Positions 50,857 through 54,814 of a stretch of 64,000 bases of DNA are shown in pieces. The DNA is from Parvularcula marina. Lineage in GTDB: Bacteria > Pseudomonadota > Alphaproteobacteria > Caulobacterales > Parvularculaceae. The notes beneath the pieces were generated by a model, which was not told the DNA's origin, made no database searches, and saw only the letters and a list, made by a program, of their open reading frames with translations. The translations under genes were made by a program, and so were the position numbers. The stretch covers positions 620,001-684,000 of the forward strand of contig NZ_QUQO01000001.1 of the NCBI RefSeq assembly GCF_003399445.1, written 5' to 3'. Positions within the stretch are counted from its first letter, which is position 1; every line of letters starts with the position of its first letter.

Positions 50857-51388
50857 GAAGGCACCGTCCACGCCCCGGCTGACGCTTGCCACAAGGGTCA
50901 CGATCTTCCGCATCCTGCTGGCCATCGCGCTCGGCCCGCTCCTGCTCGCTTTGCCTGCGCTGGCAGGTGCAGCCCTCATCGCAGTGCTGGGGCTGACGGA
51001 TTATCTCGATGGGTATCTGGCGCGCGCACGCAATGAGGTGACGAAACTCGGCGCCGCGCTCGACCCCATCGCCGACAAGCTAGTGACCGCCTCCGCGCTC
51101 ATCGCCTTTGCAGCGAACGGCACGCTCAGCGGCATTCATCTTTATGCGGTTTTTGCCATCCTCTTACGCGAAGTGCTGATCTCAGGGCTTCGCGAAACAG
51201 CCGCTGGCAGCGGTTCTATGGCGGTCAGTCAGCTTGCTAAATGGAAGACAACCTTCCAGTTCATCGCGCTGATCTCGCTGTGTTTCGGCCCGACCCCGCT
51301 GGCGCTCGGCTTTTTGTGGATGGCAGCGGTCCTGACCGTCTGGACAGGTGCCGGTTACGTCATCCGCTGGTGGGCCAGCGTGTCGTGA
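50849..51388 (+). CDS. pgsA: CDP-diacylglycerol-glycerol-3-phosphate 3-phosphatidyltransferase
   Basis: A 179-aa membrane enzyme making phosphatidylglycerol phosphate. It contains the full CDP-alcohol phosphotransferase signature D-x2-DG-x2-AR-x8-G-x3-D-x3-D, starting at 'DYLDGYLAR'. About five hydrophobic helices are visible. The ATG at 50849 overlaps the accC end by 8 nt and follows GAGGA (50842-50846); a longer frame from 50768 is not supported. Co-transcription with accBC joins fatty-acid and phospholipid synthesis. The last 29 nt overlap the convergent nitroreductase gene. Confidence 0.93.
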
Positions 51389-51992
51389 TCGCCGCCACAT
51401 CGGGGCGCGCGCGCTCTTTTGGCGGCTCGGTCGCTGTCCCGACATAAAGAATGCCCGCAACCCGCTCATGCGGTCCCATATCGAGCCGTTGACGGACATT
51501 CTCGTCATAGGCGACCCATTCGGATATCCACTGCGCGGCATAGCCCATAGCCGAGGCGGCAATCAGGAAGTTCTGGCAGACCGCGCCTGCGGTCAGGATC
51601 TGCTCCCATTCGGGCGTCTTGTGCTCGCGGTTGACCGACGAGATCACAAAGACAATCGACGGCGCCCGGAAGGCAAGGCTGCGCGCAAGATCCGGCGCCG
51701 GCGTGTCGCTATCAGAGGATGCTTCTGCGGCGGCGGCAAAGATATCGCCGAGGGCGTCTCTGGCCTCTCCTTCGAACAGGATAAAACGGTAAGGTACGAC
51801 CCGGCGGTGATCCGGTGCCCGTGCGGCAATCGTCAGCAAGCGATCCATTTCCTCTTGCGAGGGGCCGGGGCCGGTCAGGAGTTTCGCGGCGGTCGAACGA
51901 CGGTTCCAGAGAAGTGCAAGTGTGTCGTCGCTGGGATGGGCGGCAGGCAGATCCTGCCCGAACTCAGGGGGTACAAATTGGGACTCGGTCAT
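51360..51992 (-). CDS. Nitroreductase family FMN oxidoreductase (YdjA-like)
   Basis: A 210-aa protein with 'NRRSTAAKLL' near the N-terminus for FMN phosphate, 'APDHRRVVPYRFI' and the Gly-rich 'MGYAAQWISEW' segment of YdjA-type nitroreductases. The physiological substrate is unknown. The ATG at 51992 and a GTG at 52001 are both possible. It is 43 nt downstream of the FtsA-like gene on the same strand, where ftsZ would usually be expected, so it may be transcribed with the end of the dcw cluster. Confidence 0.85.
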   Translation of the reverse strand: MTESQFVPPEFGQDLPAAHPSDDTLALLWNRRSTAAKLLTGPGPSQEEMDRLLTIAARAPDHRRVVPYRFILFEGEARDALGDIFAAAAEASSDSDTPAPDLARSLAFRAPSIVFVISSVNREHKTPEWEQILTAGAVCQNFLIAASAMGYAAQWISEWVAYDENVRQRLDMGPHERVAGILYVGTATEPPKERARPDVAAITTRWPTSG

Positions 51993-52035
51993 CCGGGTCA
52001 CTTAGTCAGTAATGTGCCGTCCCGCAAAGCGCTCT

Positions 52036-53046
52036 TCACACATGGCGCCGGACCCAGCGCAGAAGCGCATTGCCGCTGCCCGGCAGGAAGCCGCCCGGCA
52101 GGCTGATGCGGCGCGGTGCCTGCCACGCTTCCTGTGCGCCTTGCCCCAGCGGGCGCAAATGCTCATCGGCAATCAGCGTCACCTCATGGTCAAGCACGCG
52201 GGTGAAAATCTCGGCGGCGCGTTTGGCTTTGTGCCCGAGCCCCGTCAGCTCGACGGGCCAGCTCGCTTTTCCCTGAGCCGCGCTGCGCACATGATGGGCA
52301 AAGCCCGCCATTTCCTCGAGCCGCGCATCAAGAACGCGTAAGACTGCCTTTTCCGCCGTATGAGGACGGCTGAGGGCGGCGCGCATCAGCGGACCTGCCT
52401 CCTCTTCACTGACGAGACCCGCCAGCACGAGATCGGTTTCCAGATGCCGGACCCCGGCGGCCATGGACCCGGCGCCGGAAAATCCTGTCTCGGTCGCGGC
52501 AACCGCCAGCATATCTTCCCGGTTCAGATGAATGAGCAGCGACTCTTCGCTCTCATCCTCCGTCGTCCGTCGATAGGCGAGCGCCTCATGCGGGGTGATG
52601 ATGTCGCGCAGCTCATGGCCGTGCCGTGTCACGATCTCTTCAAGCTCTGATGCCTGCCGTAACGGCATAGAGAGATCGAGGAATTCCGTCGTCAGCTTGG
52701 CAGCCGACTCCCCGATTGGTGGCAGATGCGAAATCGCATGATCATATATGAAGGCCGCAGGCTGACGGTAGAGAACCGCAAGCCCCTCTTCCTCACCGGG
52801 CAGATCGGCAGCCGCCTCATTGAGCTCATCAAGATCGGCATAAGCGACAGGCCGCGACAGCTCCATCGACAGGGCAAAACGCCGTGTCCGGATCAGGCTC
52901 GCCGGGATCAGGAGGATGATTTCGCTGCCTTGCGGCAGATGACGCAGCTTGGCGTCAAGCGCCGCCTCCAGCTCATGGCCGGCACGGCTCAGATCAATGA
53001 GATGCGGCTCTGCCGTCAGCTCGATTTGGGCTTGAGATACGCCCAT
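52036..53046 (-). CDS. ftsA: Divergent FtsA-like division protein lacking canonical nucleotide-binding motifs
   Basis: A 336-aa protein directly after ftsQ, the normal ftsA position. It can be laid out against FtsA: residues ~14-110 match late domain 1A plus the 1C subdomain ('RPVAYADLDELNEAA'), 150-225 match the domain carrying phosphate loop 2 ('TEDESEESLLIHL ... AAGVRHLETDLVLAGLVSEEEA'), 265-290 the adenosine-motif region ('VELTGLGHKAKRAAEIF'), and 325-336 a C-terminal amphipathic helix ('NALLRWVRRHV') like FtsA's membrane anchor. Typical FtsA is ~410-440 aa. The phosphate-1 segment is missing, DIGGGT is replaced by HLNRED, and LTGGAA by LTGLGH. The ATG at 53046 follows GAGGGA and overlaps ftsQ by 31 nt. 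A different actin-fold or unrelated protein cannot be excluded. Confidence 0.68.
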   Translation of the reverse strand: MGVSQAQIELTAEPHLIDLSRAGHELEAALDAKLRHLPQGSEIILLIPASLIRTRRFALSMELSRPVAYADLDELNEAAADLPGEEEGLAVLYRQPAAFIYDHAISHLPPIGESAAKLTTEFLDLSMPLRQASELEEIVTRHGHELRDIITPHEALAYRRTTEDESEESLLIHLNREDMLAVAATETGFSGAGSMAAGVRHLETDLVLAGLVSEEEAGPLMRAALSRPHTAEKAVLRVLDARLEEMAGFAHHVRSAAQGKASWPVELTGLGHKAKRAAEIFTRVLDHEVTLIADEHLRPLGQGAQEAWQAPRRISLPGGFLPGSGNALLRWVRRHV

Positions 53047-53891
53047 TCGGGATCCCTCAGATCAATATAATCCAGTGTTTCAGACAGTTTGCCTGTGCCC
53101 GCGCCGAGACCTTCCAGACGGTCGAGAGCCGGGCCTGCCGGCCCTTCGGGCAGGCGGGCGGTAAAATCATTACGGAAACGAAGATCGAAACGGCGGTCAC
53201 CGACACTCATCACCACAGCGACGCGGCTCATCAGTGCAGGGCGCTCATAAAGTGCGGTCAGAAGCGGAATGGCGGTTTCGGGCGAGGATGATCCGGCAAC
53301 GACCATCAGGTCGGTATGCTCAACGGGAGGGACTTCGGCGATCAGCGTACCACTCAGATCAATCAGGTGATAGCGCCCTGCGCCATCCTGCCAGAGCGCG
53401 GCGGGGCGGCGTTCACGAACGGAAATATGCACCGTATTCGGCCATAACCGCTCAACGGCGGCGGACTGGACCCAGCCGAGCTGTTCGATCTTCTGGCGGG
53501 CGTCTTCCGCATCAACATGCAGGAGCGAACGACCAAGGACACTGCCCGCTTCGTCGTCCTCGAGCGCCAGCATGATCTCACGGTTAGAGAGCTGGTCACT
53601 GCCGTAAAGCGAGACGCGGGTGACCGAGAAGCCCATGGCCTTTGCGGCCCGGCCGGTCAGCGTATCGATCCTTGTGCCAATATTCGAGAAATAGCCCCCC
53701 GCCATCAGCATGACGACGGCGAGAACGGCAATGGCCGCAAGCCCGACAGCGACAACCGACAGAACGCCCGCGCCAAGTTCCGCAAGGCCCGTCTTTAGGC
53801 GCTCGAACATGGTCAGCTGTTTCTTCCGGCCCCGGCCTTTTTTGTTGGCCGTTTTGCCTCTGGCTTTAGATCTACCCTTTACCGGGGGCAT
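53016..53891 (-). CDS. ftsQ: Cell division protein FtsQ
   Basis: A 291-aa bitopic membrane protein of the divisome. A very basic cytoplasmic tail ('KGRSKARGKTANKKGRGRKK') precedes one transmembrane helix (~46-65), a POTRA domain ('VTRVSLYGSDQLSNREIMLAL', ~80-150) and the beta domain ('WPNTVHISVRERRPAALWQ', 'LIDLSGTLI'). The ATG at 53891 follows GAGGA; a GTG at 53912 would add seven residues. The start overlaps the ddl end, and its own end overlaps the FtsA-like gene by 31 nt, so translation is coupled along the operon. Confidence 0.92.
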   Translation of the reverse strand: MPPVKGRSKARGKTANKKGRGRKKQLTMFERLKTGLAELGAGVLSVVAVGLAAIAVLAVVMLMAGGYFSNIGTRIDTLTGRAAKAMGFSVTRVSLYGSDQLSNREIMLALEDDEAGSVLGRSLLHVDAEDARQKIEQLGWVQSAAVERLWPNTVHISVRERRPAALWQDGAGRYHLIDLSGTLIAEVPPVEHTDLMVVAGSSSPETAIPLLTALYERPALMSRVAVVMSVGDRRFDLRFRNDFTARLPEGPAGPALDRLEGLGAGTGKLSETLDYIDLRDPEWAYLKPKSS

Positions 53892-54814
53892 GTCGCGTCC
53901 TCTATCATCCACCGGGTCAGCGCCCCGAAATCGATGCCTGCCGCGGCCGCCTGTTCCGGCGCGAGAGAAGTCGGGGTCAGGCCTGGTTGGGTATTCACCT
54001 CCAGGATGAACAGGCCGTTAACGCCGGCCCTGTCGTCCCAGCGAAAGTCAGCGCGGGCAAGGCCTTTGCAGCCCAGCGCCTCGATCGCCGCGACGGAGAT
54101 TTCCATCGCGGCTTTTGCCACTTCCTCGGGGATATCGGCGGGCAGAACGTGGGTGGAGCCCCCCGCCGCATATTTCGATTCATAATCATAGAAGCTGTTC
54201 TTGGGGATGATCTCGGTGACGCCGAGCGCCCGGTCGCCCATCACCGCGACCGTGATCTCGCGGCCCGGAATGAAGGGCTCGACCATGGCGATACCGCCAA
54301 AGAGTTCCTCATCGATATCGGCTTCGACGGGCGGACCCTGATTGGGGCTGGTGATGATGAAAACACCAAAAGACGAGCCGTCTCCGACGGGCTTGAGCAC
54401 ATAAGGCAGCGACAGCGGGTGATCGCCTTTCAGCGTCGAGGTTTTGATCACGCTGCCGCCCGGCACCCGGATGCCGCGCGCGGACAGAACCGCCTTGGTG
54501 CGCGGCTTGTCCATGCAGAGGGCGGAGGAAAGAACGCCTGAATGGGTGTACGGAATGTCGAGGATTTCGAGCAGTGCCTGAATGCGGCCATCCTCACCGA
54601 ACGGTCCGTGGAGGGCATTAAAGACCGCATCGGGACCATTGCCGCCAAAACTCTGATAGAGATCGCGCGCCACATCCCGGCTCATGTCGATTTCCTCGAC
54701 ATTGAAGCCCTCCTCGCGCAGGGCCTTGGCCGCGGCCGCGCCGCTGACGAGGCTGACCTCGCGTTCCGAGCACCAGCCGCCCTTGAGCAATGCGATATTG
54801 CGGTATTCCGTCAT
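53879..54814 (-). CDS. ddl: D-alanine-D-alanine ligase
   Basis: A 311-aa ATP-grasp ligase making D-Ala-D-Ala for the peptidoglycan stem peptide. 'VALLKGGWCSEREVSLVSG'-type start (here 'IALLKGGWCSEREVSL'), 'HGPFGEDGRIQALLEILDIPYTHSG', 'YVLKPVGDGSSFGVFI' and 'LEVNTQPGLTPTSL' are diagnostic. The ATG at 54814 overlaps the murB stop (ATGA) and follows GGGAGA; a longer frame to 54844 lies inside murB. Confidence 0.95.
   Translation of the reverse strand: MTEYRNIALLKGGWCSEREVSLVSGAAAAKALREEGFNVEEIDMSRDVARDLYQSFGGNGPDAVFNALHGPFGEDGRIQALLEILDIPYTHSGVLSSALCMDKPRTKAVLSARGIRVPGGSVIKTSTLKGDHPLSLPYVLKPVGDGSSFGVFIITSPNQGPPVEADIDEELFGGIAMVEPFIPGREITVAVMGDRALGVTEIIPKNSFYDYESKYAAGGSTHVLPADIPEEVAKAAMEISVAAIEALGCKGLARADFRWDDRAGVNGLFILEVNTQPGLTPTSLAPEQAAAAGIDFGALTRWMIEDATCPR

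Follow-up and report, generated by a model that had tools for sequence, protein, structure and literature searches.

The window analysed here, a stretch of 64,000 nucleotides from Parvularcula marina, contains a dcw cluster in which the order murD-ftsW-murG-murC-murB-ddl-ftsQ is followed by a last gene of 336 aa (52036..53046, minus strand), identified as ftsA-derived from its open reading frame, its orthologues within the genus and matches to FtsA profiles. The names in the cluster, except that of ftsQ, were read from the sequence. The upstream neighbour and synteny anchor ftsQ (53016..53912, minus strand) was recognised by POTRA_1 (2.8e-14) and FtsQ_DivIB_C (8.9e-11), and its 3' end is overlapped by the first 31 nt of the ftsA-derived gene, which starts with ATG. 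Downstream lies a nitroreductase-like gene (51360..52001, minus strand), named from the appearance of its sequence only. The first-pass annotation had placed a 336-aa gene after ftsQ at 52036-53046, which held, the strand being minus, and had stated that phosphate 1 is absent because the protein starts after it. This also held for the window species, where the frame can be extended upstream by about five residues at most (an open frame of only 341 aa) and the missing phosphate-1 hairpin is therefore not an annotation error. An ftsA-derived gene is found directly after ftsQ, the ancestral position of ftsA, in nine genomes of the genus, the encoded proteins spanning 336–396 aa (336 aa in the window).

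When searched alone the window protein gave only weak matches, to TIGR01174 at E = 0.18 and to Pfam SHS2_FTSA at E = 0.23; its TIGR01174 score of 10.9 bits does not meet the curated cut-off of 175.85 bits, and phmmer with this single protein gave no match to FtsA in the PDB. Matches to EF-2/EF-G (E 0.006–0.13) covered only short stretches, lay far under the cut-off and were put down to chance. Orthologues, about 24% identical to the protein of the window, are present in eight further genomes of the genus, and the profile built from all nine matches canonical FtsA from other genera of the family (E 1e-17 to 1e-24), from two other families of the order (E 1e-8 and 1e-11) and from the PDB (E 8.5e-10 and 1e-9). 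Alignment of the genus profile by hhalign to canonical FtsA of other orders gave a probability of 99% and an E-value of 3.9e-18, covering residue 42 to the C-terminus; the canonical loci came from a scan of named genomes by ddl alignment and are mostly from Rhizobiales, with none from the genus. An ftsA model matches eight of the nine genus members at E 0.01 or better, the best at 2.7e-13. The profile match to FtsA that had been named beforehand as a check was hence found with the genus profile, hhalign, the PDB and the ftsA model, and by sequence and synteny, the genus profile being decisive, the 336-aa gene is an orthologue of ftsA by descent.

Alignment with canonical FtsA reveals which parts of the protein are lost and which are kept (all on the minus strand). 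Residues 1–47 (52906..53046) form a truncated subdomain 1A, without the phosphate-1 hairpin and with low model confidence for residues 1–23; in most relatives a strand is still there at this position, but the D-x-G-x-x-K motif is destroyed. The best conserved part, according to hhalign and HMMER alignments, is a 1C (SHS2)-like domain with its flanking strands, residues 48–130 (52657..52905); SHS2_FTSA was detected in six of nine genus members, and the 1C region has a pLDDT of ~73–94 in the window model. At the phosphate-2 position IDxGGGTTx is replaced by IHLNREDML (residues 172–180, 52507..52533) and at the adenosine-motif position VLTGGGSxLxG is replaced by ELTGLGHKAKR (residues 266–276, 52219..52251). 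The sequence GVRHLETDL (residues 198–206, 52429..52455) is the counterpart of GGxHxTxDIA, its G, H and D being invariant in all nine orthologues, and residues 217–231 (52354..52398) span a gap where the canonical KTLYGSAL..DE.....PxL is absent, leaving subdomain 2B short by ~25 residues. The protein ends in a membrane-targeting-like helix, NALLRWVRRHV (residues 326–336, 52039..52071; helix 325–335 in the model), with the motif W(L/V/I)xxx(F/V), of which the W is found in all nine orthologues and the terminal F in eight, the window copy having a V. Membrane binding by this end is inferred, and its hydrophobic moment was no better than that of shuffled sequences in most genus members, nor in canonical FtsA.

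The motifs quoted in the first-pass annotation, HLNRED (173–178), AAGVRHLETDL (196–206) and LTGLGH (267–272), are all present, as is a C-terminal 'LLRWVRRHV', the second motif, then described as Gly-Gly-x-T-x-DIA-like, being refined here to the G-G-x-H-x-T-x-D-I-A motif of FtsA, while the deletion in 2B had been missed. Its claim of a degenerate FtsA held and proved to be wider, with the same losses in every one of the nine genus genomes that hold the gene: phosphate 1 (LDIGxSK), phosphate 2 and the adenosine motif are all destroyed, with substitutes that vary between species. The phosphate-2 aspartate is found in none of the nine orthologues as compared with 31 of 31 other aligned FtsA sequences. 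The 2B segment KTLYGSALxGxxDExxxxxxPxL is likewise missing from all nine, and a complete subdomain 2B, the part of FtsA that binds the C-terminal peptide of FtsZ, is not present. Retained across the genus are 1C and its flanking strands, the G-x-x-H-x-x-x-D motif, a V-x-x-R-L-x-E helix and the C-terminal end. Compared with FtsA as defined by TIGR01174, the genus protein shares the position after ftsQ, the fold including 1C, the GGxHxTxDIA-like motif, the C-terminal membrane motif and descent, but it has no recognisable phosphate-1, phosphate-2 or adenosine motif, has lost part of 2B, stays below the curated score at 336–396 aa and has no adjacent ftsZ. What is new is a protein that is FtsA by descent yet satisfies neither the score cut-off nor the motifs by which that family is defined.

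An AlphaFold2 model of the window protein (pLDDT 71.8, pTM 0.58) shows an actin-like fold in which 1C takes the place of 1B. With Foldseek FtsA structures came out on top (8e-16), and in structure comparison all top PDB matches were FtsA, with Z 17–19 (up to 18.7) versus ~15 for PilM and MreB. The actin-like fold with 1C proposed in the first-pass annotation is thus predicted, with the caveat that the input alignment contained canonical FtsA rows, making the model supporting and not independent evidence; prediction from the single sequence without an alignment was uninformative (pLDDT 37). A protein that is not FtsA at all but another 1C-containing actin-like protein, for example the pilus protein PilM, could also be considered, as PilM also combines an actin-like fold with a 1C domain and the pilM model matches one of the nine genus members (E 0.0046). 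However, PilM ranks below FtsA in both sequence and structure searches, the gene sits after ftsQ, a synteny not shared with PilM, and the W(L/V/I)xxx(F/V) end is FtsA-like and differs from the C-terminus of PilM, leaving hardly any room for this explanation.

A canonical ftsA elsewhere in the window genome (G000, 99.5% complete) was looked for and none was found, the only matches besides the locus being MreB-like and DnaK-like. No other FtsA was found in any of the ten genomes of the genus and none of them reaches the FtsA cut-off, which is reached by 47 of the 61 genomes surveyed. The remaining four of the 14 below it are G016 and G017, excluded as incomplete (78% complete, with ddl, ftsZ and ftsA all missing), G025, whose match lies at the end of a contig and is incomplete, and G059, with 143 bits. 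In a class-wide sample of Alphaproteobacteria 271 of 290 genomes are above the cut-off, and the 18 below it besides the window genome are all of 1.9 Mb or less, several with a diverged FtsA as judged by sizes and E-values.

In the tenth genus genome, G006, a single contig of 2,902,643 bp which is probably Parvularcula bermudensis HTCC2503, ftsA has been deleted cleanly, the nitroreductase-like gene following 25 nt after ftsQ, and a search of the whole genome with the genus profile found no FtsA-like copy anywhere. A limited search of the open-access literature found no report of FtsA loss in Parvularcula.

As a separate observation, in several small alphaproteobacterial genomes (0.9–1.9 Mb), including G109, G155, G156, G198, G210, G212, G217, G277, G282 and G327, the match to FtsA is weak or not above MreB level. 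Each of these may represent a separate loss or divergence. FtsA has been reported in Rickettsia, Anaplasma and most Wolbachia (PMC10591338).

In a tree of FtsZ the genus forms one clade (95), in which G006 adjoins the window genome (97), and the nearest lineages are g7 and g4, sister genera from its own family. Phosphate 2 is eroded in other genera of the family as well, the last glycine of IDxGGG being kept in only 3 of 16 sequences. The FtsA proteins of g4 and g7 resemble the genus protein in having an altered phosphate 2 (LDIGARTTA, LDMGANLTG), and the g4 sequence examined is also without the 2B segment; they differ in keeping the phosphate-1 and TGG motifs and in scoring above the FtsA cut-off where complete. 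That related genera, presumably with functional proteins, already replace the phosphate-2 glycines, together with the retained fold, could suggest a working FtsA that still binds nucleotide through a site rebuilt from other residues. Against this stand the loss of the phosphate-2 aspartate in nine out of nine, the lack of the phosphate-1 hairpin in the window copy, replacements that differ from species to species, the absence of the gene from G006 and the finding that changes near the nucleotide site of E. coli FtsA impair ATP hydrolysis, membrane activity, Z-ring assembly and function (PMC10213515). A rebuilt, working site is therefore most improbable, although nucleotide binding through rebuilt contacts is conceivable and cannot be excluded from sequence.

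When comparing divergence over the same nine genomes, the FtsA-like protein shows 3.63 changes per column versus 0.92 for FtsZ (~3.9x), the corresponding values for the rest of the family being 1.56 and 0.63, and among the nine copies that of the window has diverged furthest, with a tip of 3.0 changes per column. When the window gene is compared with four relatives, identity is 0.36–0.45 at codon position 1 (expected 0.30–0.34), 0.45–0.54 at position 2 (expected from shuffled pairing 0.25–0.26) and 0.30–0.35 at position 3 (expected 0.28–0.32). In most pairs, those with the window gene included, identity at the third position hardly exceeds chance, well below the excess at the first two. NG86 estimates of dN/dS were 0.2–0.5 in six closer pairs, the window gene not among them and dS being high. 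The other eight orthologues share 20 invariant residues, of which the window copy keeps 15. The gene is under selection at the amino acid level, the window copy included, and is not a free-running pseudogene, the selection being looser than on FtsZ.

The main rival to the reading preferred below is that of a decaying relic, in which FtsA is non-essential in the genus and the gene is drifting towards loss with little function left. It is supported by the excess divergence over FtsZ, by G006 already being without the gene and by the window copy being truncated and on the longest branch. On the other hand the frames are intact in nine diverged genomes, codon positions 1 and 2 are above chance in all listed pairs, dN/dS is low in the close pairs, the 15 residues remain invariant in nine of nine despite the low identity to the window copy, and the C-terminal motif is retained; the relic reading is accordingly improbable. 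Relic and adaptor grade into each other, above all for the fast-evolving window copy.

FtsZ is present in all ten genus genomes with its C-terminal peptide (..LEIPAFLRR) intact, even in the ftsA-less G006, and the peptide must therefore have other partners. A search of eight genus genomes found no SepF, which is the textbook substitute for FtsA as an FtsA-independent FtsZ anchor and has an unrelated fold. FtsE was found in all eight (1.3 bits under the cut-off in G000) and ZapA in five, G000 included, but not in G002, G003 and G008. In Caulobacter other FtsZ-binding proteins are recruited early and FtsA late (PMC8429850), which makes a relaxed dependence on FtsA plausible.

In E. coli the FtsN binding site on FtsA is located between 1A and 1C (PMC7613929). 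The predicted FtsN proteins of the family (L201-L212), assigned by SPOR domain and layout only, have a cytoplasmic tail that is short and acidic (YDDxYDDEE-like) and lacks the basic stretch of FtsN in E. coli. This tail was considered as evidence for a link between 1C and FtsN and rejected, as it is kept in G006 and does not track FtsA.

Descent from FtsA, loss of the motifs, deletion in 2B, retention of 1C and the C-terminal motif, selection, absence of any other FtsA and one complete loss are shown by the sequences, whereas the function has to be inferred. The reading we favour, and consider likely, is that of an adaptor which is bound to the membrane, needs no nucleotide, acts through 1C and is accessory enough to be lost. 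According to this proposal the common ancestor of the genus lost nucleotide binding by FtsA while the ftsA orthologue stayed after ftsQ; the protein would neither bind or hydrolyse ATP nor form actin-type filaments, its C-terminal helix would hold it on the membrane, and 1C would act as a passive link to late division proteins, its partners also being inferred. Other proteins would have become the main membrane anchors of FtsZ, and this handover would have made first the ATPase activity dispensable and, in one lineage, FtsA altogether. The adaptor reading is limited by the divergence of the window copy, the largest among the orthologues, and by the absence of the gene from G006, which of the sampled genomes is nearest to that of the window in the FtsZ tree, and the window copy itself may be a fading relic. 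That the pseudo-FtsA tethers or regulates the Z-ring without nucleotide, as the first-pass annotation had suggested, remains an inference, and the tether part is weakened by the reduction of the FtsZ-binding subdomain 2B and by the existence of a species in the genus that has no such gene.

Work with mutants of E. coli and a few other bacteria has fed a debate on the need of FtsA for ATP and on its essential role, as Z-ring tether, filament former or activator through 1C. The family described here offers a natural series from an eroding site through a form under selection and putatively free of nucleotide to clean loss, in apparently free-living members which keep FtsZ and its C-terminal peptide, FtsA being otherwise nearly universal in free-living relatives. 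A bolder reading, which could as well be wrong as right, is that cell division in a free-living genus relies on FtsZ but on no FtsA that binds nucleotide, with a pseudo-actin adaptor working through 1C and a membrane tail and an unidentified Z-ring anchor, one species (probably Parvularcula bermudensis) having no FtsA of any kind. In cultured members such ideas could be tested directly, and the protein that anchors FtsZ instead could be sought.

In each of the ten genus genomes ftsZ lies apart from the dcw cluster (L111-L120; e.g. L111:6441-8057), and no candidate for an FtsZ anchor was seen around the relocated gene among ORFs of 250 aa or more. In genus g7 ftsZ is near ftsA in G015 and far from it in G022; as its position varies within g7 and is unlinked in the genus, the gene has apparently been relocated on more than one occasion. 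In the subclade of G001, G003, G005 and G009 (L112, L114, L116, L120) the C-terminal peptide of FtsZ is DDDDEVEVPAFLRRN-like and not EEDLEIPAFLRR.
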